From Vulcanimicrobiota bacterium (GTDB lineage Bacteria > Vulcanimicrobiota > Vulcanimicrobiia > Vulcanimicrobiales > Vulcanimicrobiaceae): a DNA stretch of 64,000 nt. Under the pieces are notes generated by a model. The model made no database searches. It was not told where the DNA came from and saw nothing but the letters and a program-made list of their open reading frames with translations. The stretch is from positions 1,674,001 through 1,738,000 of the forward strand of contig PMSI01000001.1 of NCBI GenBank assembly GCA_003168375.1. The letters run 5' to 3'. A program made the position numbers and the translations under genes. Positions 52,197 to 64,000 of the stretch are shown here, piece by piece. Each line of letters starts with the position of its first letter. Position 1 is the stretch's first letter.

Positions 52197-53735
52197 TCAG
52201 CGCTCGAGCCGGATCGGCATCGTGAAGGCGGCGCTGCGGCCGTCGGCGGTCGAGGCGACGAACTCGATCTGATAGGTCCGGTTGAGCAAGAAGAACGGGA
52301 TCCCGCTCGGCATCTGCTCCTGACCGGCGAAGTATCCCGGCGCACCCTGCGGGACGATGATCTCGTGTCCCATCGTCCGCGCGATCACCGCGGTGACGTC
52401 GGCGCTCGTCGTCACCCGCACCAGCAGCAGCCCGCCCTTGTGGATCACCCGGTCGTTGAGGGCGATCTCGACGATCTGCGGCGCGCCGCTCGGTCCCGGC
52501 GCCGGGGCGACGATGTAGTTGAACAGGCTGGGCGTCGCGCTCGGTTGAGGCGTCGGGGTCGGCGGGGCCGGCGTCGTCGTCGAGGCCGGTTGAGGCGCCG
52601 GGGTCTGCGTGGCGGGCGCGGCCGGGCCCGGCAGCGGCATCGGCGACGGGGCGGGTGCGGCCAGGGCGAGCAGCAGCGGGAGCGCGTACAGGGCGAGCAT
52701 CGTTCCTCCGAGCAACGCCGGGTCCCGCAGCGCGGTTCCGGCCACGACGTCCGGGACGTACCCCGCCAGACCGGTAAACGACGCGGCGAGGAGGGCGGCC
52801 GAGGCCGGCGTCCGCCCGGCGATCGCGACCACCGGGACCAGCCACACCGCGTACCACGGCTCGGGCGAGGGCAGCGCGAGCCAGCCGGCCAGCGCGGCGC
52901 CGGCGAGCAGATCGCCGCGCCGGACCGCCGCGACGAGCGCCACAACTGCGGCGACCGCCAGCACCAGGCCGATGACGATCGGAAGCCCCGAACCCGACCA
53001 CGCCGCCAGCGCCGGGGCGTGGATCAGCGAGATACGCGGCGGCCCGCTGCCATGGTCGAAGCCGTGGGTGATGACGGACCAGCCGAGCGGGGCGTACGCC
53101 AGAACGAGGATCCCGAGCGCGGCGGCGGCCGCCCCCGCCCGGCGCCGCGGCGGGAGGCGAACGAGCGCCGCCGCCAGCGGGACCAATGCGACCGCTTTGA
53201 CCGCGGCGGCGGCGACGAGCGCGCCGAGCCGCGCCGGCGCGCGGCGGCCGCGATCCGCCACCAGTACGAGCGCCAGCCAGAAGACGTCGTTGTGCCCCTC
53301 GAGCGCGCTCCACAGCACCACCGGGTGGAAGGCCAGCAATGTCGCCAGCCGCGGCCGTGCGCGGGCAGCGAGACGGACGCAGGCCAGCAGCGCCAGCGCG
53401 GCGAGGAGGCGCAGCGTGAGGATCGTGCCGCCGGAGCCGAACGGACGCGTCAGCGCGACGATCAGGGCGCACGGCAGGGTGAACAGCGGGCCGTAGACGT
53501 CGCGCGGCAGCGAGCCGTCCCAGGCGCGCAGAGCGGCGTCGAGCAGCGGGTCGTGCAGCGGCGCGACGTCGGCGGTGCGATACGCGTGCGCCCACGGATC
53601 AGCCCCGTGGGCGAGCAGCGCGCCGTACGCGGCGTACGCCCAGACGTCGGCCGAGATCACGTTGACGGCGAAGACGCACGCCAGCGCCAGCGCCGCGACG
53701 GTCAGGCGGGTCGGCACGCCGGGGCGAGCGATCAC
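52197..53735 (-). CDS. GT87-like membrane mannosyltransferase with surface domain
   Basis: A 512-residue protein with about nine membrane helices in its first 350 residues, with motifs VWAYAAYGALLAHGADPW, LLAFHPVVLWSALEGHNDVFWLAL and WLALPSPEPWYAVWLVPV, typical of the DUF2029/GT87 group that uses polyprenyl-phosphate sugars. A Pro/Thr-rich stretch (about 375-410) leads to a soluble C-terminal beta-domain (VAPAPGPSGAPQIVEIALNDRVIHKGGLLLVRVTTS). The C-terminal addition is not part of the standard family. Confidence 0.75.
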   Translation of the reverse strand: MIARPGVPTRLTVAALALACVFAVNVISADVWAYAAYGALLAHGADPWAHAYRTADVAPLHDPLLDAALRAWDGSLPRDVYGPLFTLPCALIVALTRPFGSGGTILTLRLLAALALLACVRLAARARPRLATLLAFHPVVLWSALEGHNDVFWLALVLVADRGRRAPARLGALVAAAAVKAVALVPLAAALVRLPPRRRAGAAAAALGILVLAYAPLGWSVITHGFDHGSGPPRISLIHAPALAAWSGSGLPIVIGLVLAVAAVVALVAAVRRGDLLAGAALAGWLALPSPEPWYAVWLVPVVAIAGRTPASAALLAASFTGLAGYVPDVVAGTALRDPALLGGTMLALYALPLLLALAAPAPSPMPLPGPAAPATQTPAPQPASTTTPAPPTPTPQPSATPSLFNYIVAPAPGPSGAPQIVEIALNDRVIHKGGLLLVRVTTSADVTAVIARTMGHEIIVPQGAPGYFAGQEQMPSGIPFFLLNRTYQIEFVASTADGRSAAFTMPIRLER

Positions 53736-55074: not shown

Positions 55075-56141
55075 TGGCGATCGAGCGAATGCAGACCAAC
55101 GGTCCGGTGGCCGGCCGGGTCGTGGTGACCGGCGCGGCCGGCCTCATCGGTAGCGCGCTCGTTCGGCATCTCAACCTCGAGGGCGTGGACGACATCGTCG
55201 CGGTCGACCGGCTCGGCACGAGCGAGAAGTGGCGGCACCTCGTGCCGTTGCGCTTCGCCGACTACCTGGACGCCGAAGAGTTCTTCGCACGCATCGCGCG
55301 CGAGCCCGATGCGTTCGGCGAGATCGCGACGGTGTTCCATCTCGGCGCGTGCTCGTCGACGACCGAGCGCGACGCTTCCTACCTGATCGCGAACAACGTC
55401 CGGCGCTCGCAGGAGATCGCCGGCTGGTCGGTCGCGCGCCGGGCCCGTTTCGTGTACGCGTCGTCGGCCGCGACGTACGGCGCGCGCGAGAGCGACCTGC
55501 GCGAAGATCTCGATCCGCACTCGCTGCGCCCGCTGAACATGTACGGTTACTCGAAGCACCTCTTCGATCAGTGGATGCGGCGCGAGGGGATGCTGCAGGG
55601 CGCCGTCGCGCTCAAGTATTTCAACGTCTACGGCCCGAACGAAGACCACAAGGGAACGATGCGGAGCGTCGTCGCGAAAGCGTACGATCAGATCCGGGAG
55701 CGCGGCGCGATCGAGCTGTTCAAGAGCTATCGGCCCGGGATCGCCGACGGCGAGCAGACGCGCGATTTCCTGTACGTCAAGGACGCCGCCGCGATCACCG
55801 CCTTCCTGGCGCGGACGCGCAGCGCCGGCGGCATCTTCAACGTCGGTGCCGGGATCGACCGGACCTGGAACGATCTGGCGCACGCGGTCTTCACGGCGCT
55901 GGAGCTGCCGCCGCGGATCGAGTACGTCGAGATGCCCGACGTGCTGCGCGGAAAGTACCAGTACCGCACCGTCGCCACGGTCGAACGGCTCCGCGCGGCC
56001 GGCTGGACGCAGCCGTTCACCCCGCTCGAGGACGCGGTGAGCGACTACGTGCGGAACTACCTCGTGACGGGGAGCGTGCTCGGCGGTGAGGCCGAGACTC
56101 CGGCGTCGAGCCCGCGCCCGACGTTCTCCGCGACGAGGTAG
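55074..56141 (+). CDS. hldD: ADP-L-glycero-D-manno-heptose 6-epimerase
   Basis: A 355-residue SDR-fold enzyme making ADP-L-glycero-D-manno-heptose for the lipopolysaccharide inner core. It has VVVTGAAGLIGSALVRHLN (NADP site), HLGACSSTTERDASYLIANN and YGYSKHLFDQW with the YxxxK catalytic pair, and RDFLYVKDAA. HldD-like length is about 310-330 plus a 25-residue Ser/Pro tail. The tail is encoded by DNA that also codes the end of the opposite-strand glycosyltransferase over 85 bp. It is the clearest gene-level sign of a heptose-containing outer membrane here. Confidence 0.92.
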   Translation: MAIERMQTNGPVAGRVVVTGAAGLIGSALVRHLNLEGVDDIVAVDRLGTSEKWRHLVPLRFADYLDAEEFFARIAREPDAFGEIATVFHLGACSSTTERDASYLIANNVRRSQEIAGWSVARRARFVYASSAATYGARESDLREDLDPHSLRPLNMYGYSKHLFDQWMRREGMLQGAVALKYFNVYGPNEDHKGTMRSVVAKAYDQIRERGAIELFKSYRPGIADGEQTRDFLYVKDAAAITAFLARTRSAGGIFNVGAGIDRTWNDLAHAVFTALELPPRIEYVEMPDVLRGKYQYRTVATVERLRAAGWTQPFTPLEDAVSDYVRNYLVTGSVLGGEAETPASSPRPTFSATR

Positions 56142-57088
56142 AGCGGACGGCCCTTGATCTCGTCGTAGACCCGCCCGACATACTCGCCGAGGATCCCGAT
56201 CGTGATCAGCTGCACGCCGCCGAGGAACAGGATCGCGAAGATCGTCGACGTGTACCCCGGCAGGTTGTAGCCGGTGAAGACGCGGAGCGCTACCTCGTAC
56301 AGCGCGACGAAGAACGCAACGGCGCTGACGATGAACCCGAACCACGTCGCCAGCCGCAGCGGAATCTCGCTGAACGCGGTGATCCCGTCGATCGCGAACT
56401 TCAGCATCTTCGAGACCGGGTACTTCGACGACCCCGAGAAGCGCTCGGCGCGGTCGTATTCGATCCCGGTCTGTTTGAAGCCGACCCAGGAGACGAGCCC
56501 GCGGATGAAGCGATGCCGTTCGCGCGAGTCGCGCAGCGCCGCCGTGACGCGCCGGCTCATCAGCCGGAAATCCCCGGTGTCGACCGGGATCGAGACGTTC
56601 GTCAGCCGCCGGATGATGCGATAGAACAGCGCCGCGGTGATGAGCTTGAAGCGGCTCTCGCCGTGACGGCGCCGGCGCGTCGCGAAGACGACGTCGTAGC
56701 CGTCGCGGAACTTGGCCAGGAACTCGTCGATCAGTTCCGGCGGGTCTTGCAGGTCACCGTCCATCAAGACGACGGCGTCGCCCCGCGCCGCGTCGAGCCC
56801 CGCCGTCGCTGCGATCTGGTGCCCGAAGTTGCGCGAGAGCGAGATCACCCGCAGGTGGGGGTCGTCGTGCGCGGCGGCCAGCAGCTTCTCGAGCGTGGCG
56901 TCGCGGCTGCCGTCGTCGACCAGGACGATCTCGTAGGCGGCGGGCGCGACGGTCAGGCCCCCGATCACGTTTCGGATGCGGCGAAGGAGCTCGTCGATGT
57001 TGTCGGCCTCGTTGAAGAGGGGAATGACGACGCTGAGCGTCGCGTCCGCACCTCGGCGGACGAGGACCTCCTGCGAAGGGGAGAACAC
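56057..57088 (-). CDS. GtrB/ArnC-like polyprenyl-phosphate glycosyltransferase
   Basis: A 343-residue GT2 enzyme. GT-A part: LSVVIPLFNEADNIDELLRRI, YEIVLVDDGSRDATLEKLL, SRNFGHQIAATAGLDAARGDAVVLMDGDLQDPPELIDEFL (DxD), RRRRHGESRFKL and RERHRFIRGLVSW. Two C-terminal membrane helices (about 240-270 and 285-310) match GtrB/Dpm1 type I enzymes that attach a sugar to undecaprenyl phosphate for flipping. It overlaps the 3' end of hldD by 85 bp, tail to tail. Confidence 0.92.
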   Translation of the reverse strand: MFSPSQEVLVRRGADATLSVVIPLFNEADNIDELLRRIRNVIGGLTVAPAAYEIVLVDDGSRDATLEKLLAAAHDDPHLRVISLSRNFGHQIAATAGLDAARGDAVVLMDGDLQDPPELIDEFLAKFRDGYDVVFATRRRRHGESRFKLITAALFYRIIRRLTNVSIPVDTGDFRLMSRRVTAALRDSRERHRFIRGLVSWVGFKQTGIEYDRAERFSGSSKYPVSKMLKFAIDGITAFSEIPLRLATWFGFIVSAVAFFVALYEVALRVFTGYNLPGYTSTIFAILFLGGVQLITIGILGEYVGRVYDEIKGRPLYLVAENVGRGLDAGVSASPPSTLPVTR

Positions 57089-57144: not shown

Positions 57145-57528
57145 ATGATCGCCGTGCTCTTCGCCCTCGCGCTCGCTTTCGGCGACGGGGCGCCCGTCGC
57201 CGCGAGCCCCTACTTGCACGTCGGACCGACCCCGCCGCCGCACGGCTACCCGGCGATCAACGCGGTCGCGATCTCGACGACGACGATTCGCGCGGGCCGC
57301 CCGGTTCACGGCAGCGTCGAGACCTCCGACAACGTGAACTACGTCGAGGTGCGGATCGAGTACCGCGCCGTGGCGATGCACCAGGACGCATCCGGAAAGT
57401 TCTCGCTCACCTACACCGTGCCGTGGTGGCTGCCGCCGTGGCTGCGCCATGGTTACACGCTGCAGATCATCGCGCGCAGCGTCGACGGCGTCGAGACGCT
57501 GCGCGAGATTCCGATCACCGTGAGGTAA
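57145..57528 (+). CDS. Small exported protein, unknown
   Basis: A 127-residue protein with a signal sequence (MIAVLFALALAFGDGAPVAAS). The mature part is one Ig-like beta-sandwich (PAINAVAISTTTIRAGRPVHGSVETSDNVNYVEVRIEYRAVAM and YTLQIIARSVDGVETLREIPITVR) with a tryptophan/proline loop (VPWWLPPWLRHG). It resembles bacterial Ig-like adhesive or cell-surface domains. Function is unknown. Confidence 0.65.
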   Translation: MIAVLFALALAFGDGAPVAASPYLHVGPTPPPHGYPAINAVAISTTTIRAGRPVHGSVETSDNVNYVEVRIEYRAVAMHQDASGKFSLTYTVPWWLPPWLRHGYTLQIIARSVDGVETLREIPITVR

Positions 57529-57536
57529 CGGCCGCG

Positions 57537-59813
57537 TCACCGTGCGCTGAGGCCGGCGATCGTCTCGTGCAGGAACGCGGCCTGATACGCGATCGTGTCG
57601 GCGACGCCGGGGAAGCGCGGGTCCGCGCGTTGCGAGCCGAGCCGGTAACGGGCACCCTCCGCGAGCAGCGTCCCGCGCGCGTGGAGACTCTCGAGCGCCT
57701 GATCGACGCAGCGTGCGGCGTCCTGCGCCAGTTCGGGATCGACGAACGCGCCCGGCGGCAGCGCGTTGCGCAGCCGGACCACGCCGTCGCGCGCTTCATC
57801 GCGTTCGAACGGGAGATCGACCGCGATCAGCCATTGCGCGAGCAGCGCGCTCGTCGTGACGGGGCGCGCGGCTGCGAGTGCCGATGCGAGGTCACCGCGG
57901 CCGTCGAACGGCACGACGCGGTACAGCATCGAGAGGCGCCGCCCGCGGAACGGGTCGAACGCGATCGCCGCGAACCAGACGCGCGCGATTGGGACCAGGT
58001 GATCGACGATCCCCTTGAGCGCGCGCATCCTGCCGTCGGTGCTGTAGAAACCCTCCGGCGTGACGAAGAACGTCGCGCCGCGCCGCACGACGTCGACGAT
58101 GCGCGCGATGTCGGCATCGACGCCGGCACGCAGCGCGGCGAGCAGTTCGCCGCGGTACGGCTCGTTGACCGACGCCAAGCGGACGCGCGTCTCGCCGGCG
58201 GCAAAGAATGCCGGCCGCAACAGATCGGAAAGGTTCCGCGCGCGGGGCGGGAGCGAGGCCTGCGCATCGGCGCGGAAGACGATCTCGAGCGGGAGATCGT
58301 CGTGGTGAGCCTGCAGCGTCCAGGCGATGCTGCGCAGCGGGCGCGACGAGAGCTCGTTCTCGAGCGGCAGCATCCCGATCGCGACGAACAACGGGCCCGC
58401 GTTCACCGAGCGCATCAGCGGCGCGAGCCACGGCATCCGGATCGCGAAGAAGCCGGGCTCGTACATCCGGCGCGACGATGCGGTGAAGAGCGGCCGCAGC
58501 CCGCCCTGTAGATACCCGCGCTCGACGATGATCTCCGACTCGTCCTCGTGCTGGTGGTTCGCGATCAGCACGGTCGGACCGCGGCGCACCGGGAGGCGTC
58601 CCCACTGGCGCACCCGCATGCGCGGCGCGAACAACGGCTGGCGGATCGCGCTGGTCAGCCCGACCAGCAACACGGACCAGATCGAGACGAGCGGCTTGCG
58701 CCCGACGCGCAGCACCCACAGCGAACCGATCGCGAAGCTGAACCCCGCGGCGGCGAAGAGCCAGCGGTAGCCGTCGGCCGTCGTCGCGCCGCGCGCGATG
58801 ATCCAGGCGCCGAGCAGCGGCGCGGCGAGCGAGGGCAGGTACGAGAGCGTTCCCCACACGCCGAGATCGCGCGCGACGTCGCCGAGTTCCGGGATCGCGT
58901 CGAGCGCGAGCGCCCACCCGACCGAGAACACGCCGCCGAAGCCGAGTCCGAACAGCGCCGCGTAGACGAAGATGAAATGCACGTCGGGGACGAGCGCGAA
59001 GCCGAGCGCGGCGAGCGTCATCGGGACGCCCGAGAGCGCGACGACCACGCGCCGGTCGAACCGGTCGGAGAGCTTGCCGGCGCCGATGCTGGAGACGATC
59101 GCGCCGAGCAGCGCCGAGCCGGCGACGAGCCCGGTCCCGAGCGAGGCGTCGCGCACGCGCAGCACGTCGCTGAAGAAGTACAGGATGTAGGTGTTGAGCA
59201 GCGTCATGCCGAGCACGATCCAGCCGCGCGCGACGACCGTGACCCAGAGATCGTGACGGTCGCGGATCACCGCGTGCGGCCGCGGTGCGCTCGGCGCGGG
59301 ACGCGGGATCCGCGCCAGCGAGACGCCGGCGACCGAGACGGCGACGGCCATCGCGAGCAGCGCGTGCTGCGGTGAGAGCAGCGCGGCCGCGGCCAGTCCG
59401 AGGACGGTCCCCACCAGCGTGAAGACGCCGCGCGCGCCGGCCGAGGTGCCCCAGGCCTCGCGCGGGACGACGTCGGGGAGCAGCGCCTGATAGATCGTCT
59501 GCGCGGCGGTGATCGCGACCGTCGCCGCGACGAGCGCGACGCCGAGCGCGCCGATCGAGAACGCGAACGCCATCGCGCCGACCGCCGCGACGTCGACGGC
59601 CAGCGCGATCGCGGTCTCCACCCGCCGGTCGCCGCCGCGCCGACGCGCGCGGTCGGAGAACCAGCCGGCGAGCGGCGGCACGACCGCGACCGCGACGCCG
59701 ACCATGGTCGCGAGCACGGAGAGCACCGCGGTGTGATCGAGCGGTGCGAGGCGCAGCACCAGCGCCGGCACGACGATCGAGATCAGCGCCGTGTCCTGGA
59801 AGTGGATCCCCAA
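57537..59813 (-). CDS. MFS transporter fused to a PlsC-like acyltransferase
   Basis: A 758-residue two-domain protein. The N-terminal half (about 1-385) is an MFS transporter with around 12 helices (SDRFDRRVVVALSG motif A-like; DAIPELGDVARDLGVWG). The C-terminal half (about 400-600) is a glycerophospholipid acyltransferase-like domain with NHQHEDESEII (an HxxxxD-type motif, here H-Q-H-E-D) and FVTPEGFYS (EGxxS). It resembles the LplT-Aas partnership for lysophospholipid import and re-acylation in one chain. TTG 59813 is the first allowed start, but the sequence upstream to ATT 59861 (RLRDHATLNALWLG) looks like helix one's missing front; the true start is uncertain. Confidence 0.8.
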   Translation of the reverse strand: MGIHFQDTALISIVVPALVLRLAPLDHTAVLSVLATMVGVAVAVVPPLAGWFSDRARRRGGDRRVETAIALAVDVAAVGAMAFAFSIGALGVALVAATVAITAAQTIYQALLPDVVPREAWGTSAGARGVFTLVGTVLGLAAAALLSPQHALLAMAVAVSVAGVSLARIPRPAPSAPRPHAVIRDRHDLWVTVVARGWIVLGMTLLNTYILYFFSDVLRVRDASLGTGLVAGSALLGAIVSSIGAGKLSDRFDRRVVVALSGVPMTLAALGFALVPDVHFIFVYAALFGLGFGGVFSVGWALALDAIPELGDVARDLGVWGTLSYLPSLAAPLLGAWIIARGATTADGYRWLFAAAGFSFAIGSLWVLRVGRKPLVSIWSVLLVGLTSAIRQPLFAPRMRVRQWGRLPVRRGPTVLIANHQHEDESEIIVERGYLQGGLRPLFTASSRRMYEPGFFAIRMPWLAPLMRSVNAGPLFVAIGMLPLENELSSRPLRSIAWTLQAHHDDLPLEIVFRADAQASLPPRARNLSDLLRPAFFAAGETRVRLASVNEPYRGELLAALRAGVDADIARIVDVVRRGATFFVTPEGFYSTDGRMRALKGIVDHLVPIARVWFAAIAFDPFRGRRLSMLYRVVPFDGRGDLASALAAARPVTTSALLAQWLIAVDLPFERDEARDGVVRLRNALPPGAFVDPELAQDAARCVDQALESLHARGTLLAEGARYRLGSQRADPRFPGVADTIAYQAAFLHETIAGLSAR

Positions 59814-59856
59814 CCACAGCGCGTTCAGCGTCGCGTGATCGCGCAGGCGGAACGTG

Positions 59857-60453
59857 CTAATCGATGTCCGCCCAGGCCGCGACGTCGATGCGCACGTGGG
59901 CGTCGGGTTCGCCCTTCGCGACGTGCGCGCGGGGGAGTGCGCGGTTCTCGTCGCGTTCGATCGTCCCGAACGAGCCGCGCGTGACGCGGAACGCGACGCG
60001 CGCGCCTTGGCGCAGCTTCAGCACCAGGCGGAAGTGCCGCGCGTCGACGCGATCCATCCGCACCTCAGCGGGCGACCAGCCGCTGCGTTCGGTGCTCAGG
60101 AAGATGTCGTCGCCGGGCGGCGTCCGCGGCGGGACGAAGACGTCGATCGTCGAGGTGACCAGCTCGGTCTGGTCGGCATCGCGCTCGGCGGCCGGCGCGA
60201 TGAGGTATGCGGCGCGCGGGATCTTTGCGGCCGGCAGCGCGTCCGGCGTCAGCGTCTGCGGTGTGGCGCGATTGTCGGCGTCGAGCGAGATCGCGATCGC
60301 GCGGCCGGGGACGATCGCGGCGCACGACGCGCCCTCGGCGAGCCGCAGCACGCCCGCACCGGCGACCGCGAGGCGGTCGCCCGCGCACGCCAGCGGCACG
60401 ACGCGGAACAGCGTCGCCGCGGCGGCCGCAGCCAACAGCATCGCGTGCGTCAC
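59857..60453 (-). CDS. Exported starch-binding-like beta-domain protein (second paralog)
   Basis: A 198-residue protein. GTG 60453 overlaps the barrel stop (GTGA); ATG 60441 is an alternative. A signal peptide (MLLAAAAAATLFRVVPLACA) precedes a short domain (about residues 20-95) and a C-terminal beta-sandwich (DIFLSTERSGWSPAEVRMDRVDARHFRLVLKLRQGARVAFRVTRGSFGTIERD). That sandwich has the WxP..V.M.R......L.LK.G..V.FRVTRGS pattern of CBM20/48-like carbohydrate modules. The protein at 62076-62942 carries the same module, so these two are paralogs flanking one barrel. Confidence 0.75.
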   Translation of the reverse strand: MTHAMLLAAAAAATLFRVVPLACAGDRLAVAGAGVLRLAEGASCAAIVPGRAIAISLDADNRATPQTLTPDALPAAKIPRAAYLIAPAAERDADQTELVTSTIDVFVPPRTPPGDDIFLSTERSGWSPAEVRMDRVDARHFRLVLKLRQGARVAFRVTRGSFGTIERDENRALPRAHVAKGEPDAHVRIDVAAWADID

Positions 60454-62075
60454 GGGGTGATCGCGAAGCTCCAGCGCGGCTGCCAGCGCATTCCGCCCCA
60501 ATCGAAATCGTAGGCCCGTCCGACGTCGATCCCGATGTTCGGGAAGGGCCGGAACTTGACGTCGGCGCGCGCCTCCCACTGTGGCCGGCCGAAGCCCCCG
60601 AACTGCGGGAAGTCGGCAGCGTGCGTGACGGTGAGACGATACGACGTGTTCCCGTTCGGCGTGAACTGCAGCACGCCGCTCTCCGTGCGCGACATGCCGG
60701 CGCCGCTGAACGCGGCGTAGCCGAAGTACGGCGTACCGTCCGGCAGCAGCAGCGGCGGGTTCAGCGTCGGATAGAACAGCGCTTGCGCGTTCGGGTACAC
60801 GTTCGCGTTCCAGGTTGCCAAGTAGTAGCCGAACAGCGTGACGGTGCGCGTCAGCGGACGCGTCACGGCGGCGTTCGCGCTGAACGAATCGTTGTAGTGC
60901 GGGAACGAGTACCACGTCCGGGAGACGTCGTAGGTCGTCGTGAGTGTCGCGCCGAGCGGGATGTGCACCGTCGGCGCGGCGATCGAGAGATCGAGCCCAT
61001 GGCGCCACACGGTCGCGTACCTGCGCGCGTCCGGTAGCTGGCCGAGCAGCCCGCCGTACTGCGCGTCGAAGCCGGCATTCCCGCTCAGGCGGTACGTCAC
61101 GCCGCCGAACAGCGGACGGTCCCGCGTACGCAGCGCCGCCGTGAAGCTCGACGAGCCGAACGTCGAGCGGAAGTAGTCGAGCCCGAGGAAGCCCGAGCCG
61201 AGCCCGACGTGCCCCGACGCGCCGTACTTCGAACCGCTCCCGTCGACGCTCAGCGTGTAGCGCGAGCCGAGCCGCCGGTACGCGTTGAAACCGGAGACGG
61301 GATAGCCGCGCAGCGGCGCATCGATCGCCGCGGTCGCGTACGCGTCGTCGCCGGAGACGAGCTGCTGCTGCAGCCCGAGCGCCGCGCCGGGGCCGCTCTC
61401 CCAACGCGCGTGAAGCGCGGTCAGCGCGTTCTCCGAGCCCCACAGCCCGTACGGCTGGTCGAACGTCGCACCTTGGAGGCTGCTCGAGCTGAAGCCGGCG
61501 CCGGTCGAGAACGAGTGCAGATACGACGGCACGGGGACCCCGCCGACCGACGTCGGGAACGACGCCGGCGAGAAGCGCACGTCGGCGTGCGGAACGATCG
61601 TCGCATGGCGTGACTTGATGAACGCGTAGCGGTCGTCGACGTCCGGGAACGCGAACCGCTGGGCGTCGAACTCGGCCGGGCTCGCGGGACCGAGTGCGCG
61701 ACTCGTGCGCGTGACGCCGGACGCAGCGTCGAGCAGGTCGACGCGGTCGGCGTCGATCTCGAGCGCGATGGCGTCGGCGTTCGCGCTCGCCTCGCCGCGC
61801 GTGACGCGCGCATGTCCGGCCAGCACGACGCGGTCGGTCTTGAGGTCGACGTACGCGGCGTCCGCGCTCGCGCGCGTGCCGTCGGCGAGCGCGAACCGCG
61901 CGCCTCCGCGCGCGACCAGCGTCAGCGTATCGGAGAAGAAGAACACCGACGCGCCGTCGAGCGTCGCGGTCGCCCGTGCGCTCGCACCAAGCGGCAATCC
62001 CGCCATCACCACAAGCGCCAGCGCGACTCGGGCGAAGCCCGAGCGCGGCGACTTTGTGCGTAAGCGCAAAGTCAC
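60450..62075 (-). CDS. LptD/OstA-like outer-membrane barrel with OstA-N domain
   Basis: A 541-residue exported protein. A signal peptide (about residues 14-34) is followed by an OstA/LptA-like beta-jellyroll (about 36-115: ATLDGASVFFFSDTLTLVARGGARFAL, DGTRASADAAYVDLKTDRVVLAGHARVTRGEASANADAIALEID) and then a barrel of alternating strands rich in aromatic ends (GSRYTLSVDGSGSKYG, TLFGYYLATWNANV, NIGIDVGRAYDFDWGGMRWQPRWSFAITP with terminal aromatic-rich strand). It may insert or relay lipopolysaccharide or another lipid at the outer membrane. Full LptD is longer and has a plug cysteine pattern not seen here. Confidence 0.8.
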   Translation of the reverse strand: MTLRLRTKSPRSGFARVALALVVMAGLPLGASARATATLDGASVFFFSDTLTLVARGGARFALADGTRASADAAYVDLKTDRVVLAGHARVTRGEASANADAIALEIDADRVDLLDAASGVTRTSRALGPASPAEFDAQRFAFPDVDDRYAFIKSRHATIVPHADVRFSPASFPTSVGGVPVPSYLHSFSTGAGFSSSSLQGATFDQPYGLWGSENALTALHARWESGPGAALGLQQQLVSGDDAYATAAIDAPLRGYPVSGFNAYRRLGSRYTLSVDGSGSKYGASGHVGLGSGFLGLDYFRSTFGSSSFTAALRTRDRPLFGGVTYRLSGNAGFDAQYGGLLGQLPDARRYATVWRHGLDLSIAAPTVHIPLGATLTTTYDVSRTWYSFPHYNDSFSANAAVTRPLTRTVTLFGYYLATWNANVYPNAQALFYPTLNPPLLLPDGTPYFGYAAFSGAGMSRTESGVLQFTPNGNTSYRLTVTHAADFPQFGGFGRPQWEARADVKFRPFPNIGIDVGRAYDFDWGGMRWQPRWSFAITP

Positions 62076-62942
62076 CTAATGCGGCGGCTGGTTGGGCTGC
62101 GAGGGCGGGCGCGGCGTCGGGAACCCGCCCGGCGGCGACGCGTGCGGGGCCGGGAAGATCCCGCCGGGCTGGAACGGGTTCGGATTGTACGGTGTGGGGA
62201 CGGCGCCGGGCTGCGCGCCTTGCGGAGCGTTGCCGCGATCGTCGGTCCAGGCGAACACGTCCGTCCGCGCCTCCTGCGCATCGACCTCTTTGGTCACGTA
62301 TTCGAGCGCCGGCGCCTGCAGGCCGTCGTTGCCAACCGCGACGGAGTTCCACGAACCCCGCGTGACGCGGTACGCGAACTTCGTCCCCGATGCGAAGCGG
62401 CGCACCGCGCGATAGCGATTGCCGTCGATACGGTCGAGCTTGATCGCCTGCGGGTTCCATCCGCTGACGTCGGTGCTGATGTAGACGCTGGCGTTGAGCG
62501 GCGTCGTCGGCGGCACCGTCACCAGGAACGCGACCGCGACCTCTTTGCCGGTCAGCTTGACGCCGACGATCTCCGGCGCGCGCTCGGTCGTGGGGCGCGT
62601 CGCCGCGAGCGGTTGCGCGACCGCCGCGTAGGCGACGTCCGGTGCGAGGTGCCGCGCGGTCAGATCGAGCTCGACGACTTGTTTGGTCGCCGGGTCGAAG
62701 AGCGCGCGGGCGAACAGCTTCGCGCGCGGCTTCAGTGTCGTCGGTTTGCCGGTGTCGTAGTCGGCGATCCGCGGGGTGTCGGCCAGCTTGAACGCGTCGC
62801 CGGTGGTGAAGTAGACGTAGCCGTTGCGGACGTCGAGGAGCTGACCGGTGAAGCGCACCAGCTCACCCTGCGCGAGCGAGGGCAGCGCGAGCGCGGCAAG
62901 CGCGATCGACGCGAGGAGGACGGCGAGCGGACGCATCGTCAT
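62076..62942 (-). CDS. Exported starch-binding-like beta-domain protein (first paralog)
   Basis: A 288-residue protein; ATG 62942 overlaps the upstream barrel stop. A signal peptide (MRPLAVLLASIALAALALPSLAQ) is followed by a small beta-domain (LVRFTGQLLDVRNGYVYFTTGDAFKLAD) and a linker. Then comes a CBM20/48-like module (NASVYISTDVSGWNPQAIKLDRIDGNRYRAVRRFASGTKFAYRVTRGSWNSV). It ends with a long Pro/Gly/Asn-rich tail (about 225-288) that could hold it to the envelope. The module is clearly the same kind as in the 59857-60453 gene. The role is unknown, perhaps sensing or holding glycan for the barrels. Confidence 0.75.
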   Translation of the reverse strand: MTMRPLAVLLASIALAALALPSLAQGELVRFTGQLLDVRNGYVYFTTGDAFKLADTPRIADYDTGKPTTLKPRAKLFARALFDPATKQVVELDLTARHLAPDVAYAAVAQPLAATRPTTERAPEIVGVKLTGKEVAVAFLVTVPPTTPLNASVYISTDVSGWNPQAIKLDRIDGNRYRAVRRFASGTKFAYRVTRGSWNSVAVGNDGLQAPALEYVTKEVDAQEARTDVFAWTDDRGNAPQGAQPGAVPTPYNPNPFQPGGIFPAPHASPPGGFPTPRPPSQPNQPPH

Positions 62943-64000
62943 GGCGTGAACTGGATCACGAACTGCGGCGTCCACCGCTCGTTGGCGAAGTTGAAGTAGT
63001 ACGAGCGGCCGAGGTCGAGCAGTATCTGTCGCGAGAGCCGCACGCGCAGATCAGCGGCGAACTGCCACGGTGGTTGTCCATAGAGCCCCGGGACCGGTGC
63101 CGGTGTGTCGTAGAAGCGCGAGAGCATCAGGTTGAGCTCGAAGGATGGCGTGGGGGTGTAGATCACGGAGGAGGTGTAGCCGCGGGAGGTCGCCAGACCG
63201 CGGAAGGCCGCCTGCCCCGAGAACGTGCCGAACGGCGTGACGGTGATGTCGGGGCTCGGAGTATACGCCGCCAGCTGGGCGGACCCCCAGTAGTCGTCGA
63301 TCGTCTTGATCTCGTACGCCACGAAGGCGCGCAGGTGCTGCCGTTCGCGCACGCCCCCGAGCGTCAGGCGCAGGTCGCCGTTGTCGAGCTGGTGCGGCAG
63401 GCTGTACCAGGTGCGCTGGCGGTCGTACGAGGCGGTGAACGCGAGCGACCTCGTGAGGTTGATCGCCGGCGTGTAGAGCGAACCGCCGAGGTAGCGGTAC
63501 GAGACCGTCGGCGGCCCCGGCTGCTCGTTCGGGTAGCCGCCCTCGCCGTAGATGTCGTGCGCCCACCCGATGCCGGCGCGCGGCCGCAGGAGCAGCCGCG
63601 TCGAACCGTGGGTGAGCGGCGTCGGACCGCCGGTGAACACCAGCGAGGCGTCCGTCGGGTGCTCTTTCCAGCGGGTGTCGAATTCCGGGGTCGAGACGTT
63701 CAGGTCGGTGATCCCGTGCGGCAGCCCCAGCAGATATTGATAGTAGTTGTCCTGCGTGTAGGTCAGGCTCGAACCGCGAAAGCCGCCGGTGAGCTGGAGC
63801 TGCGCGAAGCCGGCCGCGTTCGTCGGCCGGTTGATGATCCCGGCCTGCGCGGCCGACTCTTGGAGGAACAACCGGCTCTCGAACTTCGGTGACCAGCGCT
63901 TGTAGCCGATCAGATTGTACTGGCGCTGTTCCTGCGTCAGCGGGTCGACGCCGAAGACGATCCAGTCCTGATCCCAGACGAAGTGCTGGTCGAACGCGAG
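62939..64000 (-). CDS. LptD-like outer-membrane barrel, 5' end beyond window
   Basis: At least 354 residues of C-terminal sequence; the frame stays open to the window edge, so the N-terminus lies outside. It consists of barrel strands with the usual aromatic girdle (FDQHFVWDQDWIVFGVDPLTQEQRQYNLIGYKRW, SLTYTQDNYYQYLLGLPHGITDLNV, AFTASYDRQRTWYSLPHQLDNGD, FVAYEIKTIDDYWGSAQLAAYTP) and ends in ERWTPQFVIQFTP, a terminal aromatic outer-membrane signature. It resembles LptD C-terminal barrels. Its stop overlaps the next gene, making an operon with two barrels. Confidence 0.75.
   Translation of the reverse strand, partial: LAFDQHFVWDQDWIVFGVDPLTQEQRQYNLIGYKRWSPKFESRLFLQESAAQAGIINRPTNAAGFAQLQLTGGFRGSSLTYTQDNYYQYLLGLPHGITDLNVSTPEFDTRWKEHPTDASLVFTGGPTPLTHGSTRLLLRPRAGIGWAHDIYGEGGYPNEQPGPPTVSYRYLGGSLYTPAINLTRSLAFTASYDRQRTWYSLPHQLDNGDLRLTLGGVRERQHLRAFVAYEIKTIDDYWGSAQLAAYTPSPDITVTPFGTFSGQAAFRGLATSRGYTSSVIYTPTPSFELNLMLSRFYDTPAPVPGLYGQPPWQFAADLRVRLSRQILLDLGRSYYFNFANERWTPQFVIQFTP

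Follow-up and report, generated by a model that had tools for sequence, protein, structure and literature searches.

Paired LptD-like barrels and CBM20-fold proteins in an Eremiobacterota operon: a candidate accessory outer-membrane translocon

LptD is commonly regarded as a single essential barrel in each cell that works with a single partner on a single substrate. Its barrel consists of 26 strands, and the seam between the first and the last of these acts as the lateral gate. Starch or glycogen is the usual ligand of CBM20 domains. In Borrelia, which has no LPS, the LptD homologue BB0838 is required for surface lipoproteins (PMC13317210), and this lipoprotein role shows that a change of substrate within the LptD family is possible. 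As we read the locus described here, its nearest polysaccharide analogue is EpsX/EpsY, a composite OPX/beta-barrel translocon (PMC9601211). Among the papers searched, none links LptD with CBM20 or with Eremiobacterota.

Operon layout and adjoining genes

We analysed a stretch of 64,000 nucleotides from an Eremiobacterota genome (G000:C4:1674001-1738000; hereafter the window), in which open reading frame calls give an operon in the order barrel1, module1, barrel2, module2 and an MFS gene, all on the minus strand. Only the C-terminal part of barrel1 lies in the window (62939..64000); the gene starts outside it at C4:1738696 and encodes a protein of 585 aa (C4:1736939-1738696, or L001:8940-10697) that is LptD-like by its AlphaFold model and Foldseek matches. 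Module1 (62076..62942) encodes a predicted secreted protein of 288 aa with an N-terminal beta domain, a CBM20-fold domain and a Pro-rich tail. Barrel2 (60450..62075) encodes a 541-aa LptD-like paralogue of barrel1 with a weak LptD_N match (E 0.0073), and module2 (59857..60453) a 198-aa paralogue of module1. Module1 overlaps barrel1 by 4 bases (ATGA), barrel2 directly abuts module1, and module2 overlaps barrel2 by 4 bases (GTGA). The original prediction, made from the window sequence, had read the gene order, the overlaps and the abutment correctly, and the N-terminus of barrel1 that it proposed to seek upstream was found there.

The two pairs are related to each other. The alignment of barrel1 with barrel2 spans both proteins in full, with 25.5% identity (599 aligned positions, E 5e-32), and module1 and module2 share 37% identity over 94 aa (E 1-2e-15), which places the motif previously noticed in the two module proteins beyond chance. 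Comparison with sister genomes gave dN/dS values of 0.23-0.47 for both barrels and both modules, indicating purifying selection and therefore four real, constrained genes, which are also conserved across the class. A search of the window with Rfam gave no match anywhere.

In the window's genus, the MFS gene (57537..59858, minus strand, with a start at about 59813-59858) follows module2 at 8/8 loci; at the remaining operon loci examined, which belong to other genera, no such gene was found. The protein had been described as a fusion of MFS and acyltransferase parts. The first part holds (PF07690, 1.9e-20); for the second, a putative acyltransferase of PlsC/Aas type, the C-terminal half has motif-like invariant stretches (NHQHEDES and PEGxYSxDGR), and Pfam and PDB profile searches returned no match to it. 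Around the stop of module2 (59857-59861), neither an ATG nor a GTG is available to start the MFS gene. The GATTAG there, common to some relatives (L090, L092), would permit an ATT start overlapping the module2 stop codon.

On the plus strand, a gene for a signal-peptide protein of 127 aa (57145..57528) converges on the operon and is kept in many loci of the window's family (f1); a Pfam search with this protein gave no match. By eye, its C-terminal pattern is like the end of a membrane protein encoded at 52197-53735. A GT2 glycosyltransferase gene (56057..57088, minus strand; PF00535, 3.4e-34) lies beyond it, and synteny shows that such a gene often adjoins the operon.

Folds of the barrels and the modules

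An AlphaFold model of barrel1 built with 58 aligned relatives reached a pLDDT of 90.3 and a pTM of 0.80. Foldseek against the PDB returned LptD for all 15 top matches (E 1.4e-12 to 4e-8), followed by pilus ushers as the next best (8e-6), with TM-scores between the model and LptD that were low (0.2-0.4). In the model, strands of at least 5 residues assigned by DSSP number 10 before residue 166 and 19 after it, and barrel1 is thus predicted to be an LptA/OstA-type jellyroll joined to a barrel of about 18-20 strands. A VIA comparison, whose rows cover mainly residues 170-558 of barrel1, gave its highest scores to TonB-dependent receptors (Z up to 15.5), with LptD behind them (Z 13.3). The assignment to LptD therefore depends on the arrangement of jellyroll plus barrel and not on the barrel by itself. 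The full-length homology suggests that barrel2 has a similar fold.

Sequence comparison points to the same relatives. The profile of the barrel family matched that of canonical LptD with an E of 2.9e-5 and a probability of 74, the match being centred on the jellyroll; LptD_N was weakly detected in 9/58 barrel members and OstA_2 in 3/58, and none of the PDB sequences matched the barrel family profile. The earlier description of LptD-like barrels with an OstA/LptA-type jellyroll is thus upheld by the model, by Foldseek and by the profile match. Neither barrel1 nor barrel2 contains a cysteine, and this is also the case for 19/39 first barrels and 12/19 second barrels.

Conservation is concentrated at both barrel ends. 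Averaged over the three opening and the three closing strands of the barrel, conservation in the alignment is 2.57 bits, compared with 1.95 for the rest, and the near-invariant residues D179, G186, H195, R197, R526, R537, Y539, F541 and P550 all lie at these ends. Part of this seam conservation could reflect barrel folding by BAM, a process that may likewise keep the last strand constant, but the first four strands show no lower conservation.

Module1 begins with a signal-peptide-like sequence that has no lipobox. A small beta domain at the N-terminus comes next, then a second domain and finally the Pro-rich tail, which is predicted with low confidence. The second domain of the model has a CBM20 fold according to VIA (glucoamylase 2vn4, Z 10.8; STBD1 8x8k, Z 10.3), and Foldseek agrees. 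Pfam CBM_20 was detected in 14/65 module relatives (best 2.1e-6), with no match in the window modules themselves. The suggestion that the modules are of CBM20 type is supported by the fold. The Trp of the SGW motif, at the position of the first-site Trp, is kept in 58/65 modules and the Trp of RGSW in 39/65. Binding of a glycan by the modules is plausible, and the predicted CBM20 fold is no proof that this glycan is an alpha-glucan. We also considered the module as an LptE and rejected this, as it has no lipobox and a different, CBM20-type fold.

A CBM20-fold protein beside a barrel might also mean uptake, the module capturing an alpha-glucan or oligosaccharide and the barrel importing it. The general preference of CBM20 domains for starch or glycogen, the retention of the SGW Trp and the resemblance of the barrel part to TonB-dependent receptors in VIA agree with such a role. 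However, biosynthetic genes make up the constant surroundings, among which we saw neither an amylase nor a TonB component, the barrel has no plug domain, and a jellyroll is a feature of export in known families. We regard uptake as very improbable.

Canonical LptD, distribution and duplication

The window genome carries LpxC, two LptF/G proteins, an LptC-like protein and an ABC protein read as LptB; LpxA and LpxB are present by sequence reading alone. Two tandem LptA-like genes (L068:8407-9812, G000:C4) lie between mreB and the gene for a RarA-like ATPase. Family f3 has, in place of the tandem LptA-like genes, a single long protein (L071:8352-10277) in which the OstA repeat occurs several times. 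Near the lpx/lpt cluster, the product of L067:5654-8323 (G000:C4) is 889 aa long and carries an SLH domain (PF00395, 9.8e-12); it is perhaps an OmpM-like outer-membrane tether.

Canonical LptD is a protein of 918 aa with the stretches TTCENP and GNCY, encoded directly downstream of the second lptF/G gene (L069:6133-8886; G000:C4, about 1248132-1250885). A profile of its family finds Neisseria LptD (7omm) at 3.8e-15. It was found in 31/31 genomes of a set of relatives and in 144/149 genomes of the phylum, including 85/85 good ones, and two of its cysteines are invariant in the phylum. PF04453 matched neither the window barrels nor the canonical LptD of this phylum, so the absence of a PF04453 match is uninformative here, and annotation based on that model would wrongly report Eremiobacterota as lacking LptD.

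The idea that the window barrels are the sole LptD of the genome was rejected, as a canonical LptD adjoins lptF/G. The barrels are therefore additional, supplementing LptD and not replacing it. The original prediction had taken the locus as a system different from the usual single LptD-LptE pair; it is an addition beside LptD and not another version of it. A complete canonical LptD elsewhere had been listed among the findings that would speak against the prediction and is indeed present; barrels without an OstA domain and modules unlike each other, listed with it, are not what we found.

Alternatively, the barrels might be extra LPS translocons fed by the same LptB2FG-LptA bridge, serving LPS variants such as those bearing O-antigen, with the module sensing the O-chain. 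This would fit a genome with one LptF/G pair and two tandem LptA-like genes, a jellyroll suited to LptA docking, and Wzy_C and heptose-epimerase-like genes nearby. Yet canonical LptD is present and universal, and both barrels lack the cysteines that are invariant in its family. LptA copy number, considered as a predictor of barrel number, was rejected since it bore no clear relation to it. We consider this reading unlikely.

To survey the distribution of the operon, we scanned genome contigs, using as queries the first-barrel proteins from the window's genus and from its closest relatives, which gave 43 loci, 41 of them titled Eremiobacterota or WPS-2 and two titled only 'bacterium'. Relatives of the barrel occur in 108/117 genomes of the class (67/70 good ones) and in 0/15 good genomes outside it; relatives of module1 occur in 103/117 (66/70 good ones). 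The barrel search gave 111 hits, and the three outside the class were short ones. These were rejected as family members: they cover short OstA stretches, and the ones examined, in G127, G129 and G133, fall within canonical LptD genes. The module family has a single match beyond the class, a CBM20-like domain on an esterase-like protein, which was likewise rejected. Within the window's genus, G105 has the whole operon (L047). A cultured relative, Vulcanimicrobium alpinus, probably has the operon as well; this organism has a genome of 3.50 Mb and an LPS-covered outer membrane (PMC9758169).

Module1 directly follows barrel1 in 38/39 loci, and the four-gene order of barrels and modules is seen at 17 loci, which belong to f1 and f2. 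In a tree of 58 barrels, one branch parts the first from the second barrels (support 95/84). Family f3 has its second barrel elsewhere in the genome, away from pair 1, and when these second barrels were added to the tree, all 40 first barrels stayed on one side of a branch (SH-aLRT 98). First modules likewise form one clade (96), with all second modules, including the f3 copies, outside it. We observed in f3 (L033, L036, L038) a lone second module beside a glpX-like gene and without a barrel; with the second barrel elsewhere, pair 2 is therefore split in this family. Most genera of f1 show pair 1 alone and have probably lost pair 2.

With the root taken between the two groups, the simplest reading of these trees is a duplication older than the divergence of the class into its three families. 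A recent local duplication was rejected, as the trees set all first barrels against all second barrels and unite the first modules in one clade. The proposal that a barrel-module unit was duplicated thus stands, supported by paralogy and trees, with the duplication being ancient and not local.

Pair 1 has constant neighbours, namely DeoB, a polysaccharide-initiating sugar transferase (PGT, PF02397) and MurJ. Beyond these lie a Wzy_C protein and GT2 glycosyltransferases, with heptose-epimerase-like genes also near. DeoB, PGT, barrel1 and module1 all run in the same direction in f3; the PGT locus of f1 and f2 is instead divergent from pair 1 and does not form one operon with it. The second barrel of f3 is near MurJ-, rfbD- and epimerase-like genes, named from their sequences.

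These neighbours could instead belong to a pathway for soluble polysaccharide, with the barrels acting as pores comparable to EpsX or AlgE of the Wzx/Wzy or synthase pathways, the CBM20 module guiding the polymer and no lipid being inserted. Linkage to PGT, MurJ and Wzy-like genes agrees with this, as does a barrel of about 18-20 strands, closer to the 18-stranded EpsX (PMC9601211) than to LptD. OPX export proteins, moreover, occur in 46/70 good class genomes and are missing in the other third; the OPX matches in the window genome lie away from the operon (C6:927642 and C4:660756). However, barrels of the EpsX/AlgE type do not have an LptA-type jellyroll, and Foldseek clearly ranked LptD first. 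We judge such pores to be rather unlikely.

Proposed translocon and comparison with known systems

The reading we prefer, to which we give an even chance, is of an accessory translocon of LptD type, present in two copies in the operon and devoted to a second glycan or glycolipid. Each copy would have a CBM20-fold partner and work beside the canonical Lpt machinery. Much as in LptD, the N-terminal jellyroll would take up a lipid-linked glycan from the periplasmic side, and the substrate would pass through the barrel lumen and leave at the seam between the first and last strands. The secreted CBM20-like protein may hold or recognise the glycan portion of the substrate and stand in for LptE; this role is suggested by its fold and by its constant pairing with the barrel. 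Because of the content of the locus, the likely substrate would be a glycan or glycolipid begun by the neighbouring PGT and made with the MurJ-like flippase, the Wzy-like protein and glycosyltransferases, though this linkage is guilt by association.

This reading is favoured by the LptD matches of barrel1, the CBM20 fold of module1, the steady pairing of the two, the occurrence of the barrel family in 67/70 good class genomes against 46/70 for OPX exporters, the conserved seam and the separate, universal canonical LptD; the low TM-scores to LptD and the VIA ranking weigh against it. For such a translocon, export itself, the substrate, the contact between module and barrel and the feeding of the barrel are all inferred. 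The original prediction had the modules feeding a glycolipid to the barrels or sensing the glycan state, and both roles are likewise hypothetical. The feeding of the barrels is its weakest link: the genome has just two LptF/G genes and no evident second ABC exporter that would supply them. More tentatively, and at somewhat less than an even chance, the barrels may form a dedicated second outer-membrane glycolipid translocon common to the class, in which an LptD-derived barrel with a CBM20-fold partner replacing LptE exports a non-LPS surface glycolipid, and which was duplicated before the class diversified. If true, this would reveal how outer-membrane lipid export came to vary among diderm Terrabacteria, and it would provide a translocon whose choice of substrate can be compared directly with that of LptD.

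The window barrels resemble LptD in having a predicted N-terminal LptA/OstA jellyroll followed by an outer-membrane beta barrel, in their best Foldseek matches and in the conservation of the seam strands. They differ from it in strand number (about 18-20 in the predicted barrel against 26), in the absence of the conserved cysteines that form the interdomain disulfide, and in their adjacent partner, a secreted CBM20-fold protein without a lipobox in place of the lipoprotein LptE; their genes also lie in a glycan locus, with canonical LptD present besides. As the 26 strands, the cysteine pair and the LptE-type partner are not found, we class the barrels as an LptD-derived family and not as LptD proper.

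Borrelia BB0838 (PMC13317210) offers a parallel as an LptD-family barrel with a non-LPS substrate, which is what we propose for the window barrels, but its substrates are lipoproteins in an organism without LPS, whereas the window genome has LPS genes and canonical LptD. Like glucoamylase and STBD1, module1 has a second domain of predicted CBM20 fold with an SGW Trp that is mostly kept; unlike them, the window module is free-standing with no enzyme attached, and Pfam CBM_20 is detected in 14/65 members of its family. EpsX/EpsY (PMC9601211) likewise combines a barrel with a periplasmic partner at a Wzx/Wzy-type polysaccharide locus, but EpsX is AlgE-like and has no jellyroll, and EpsY is an OPX protein and not a CBM20 fold.
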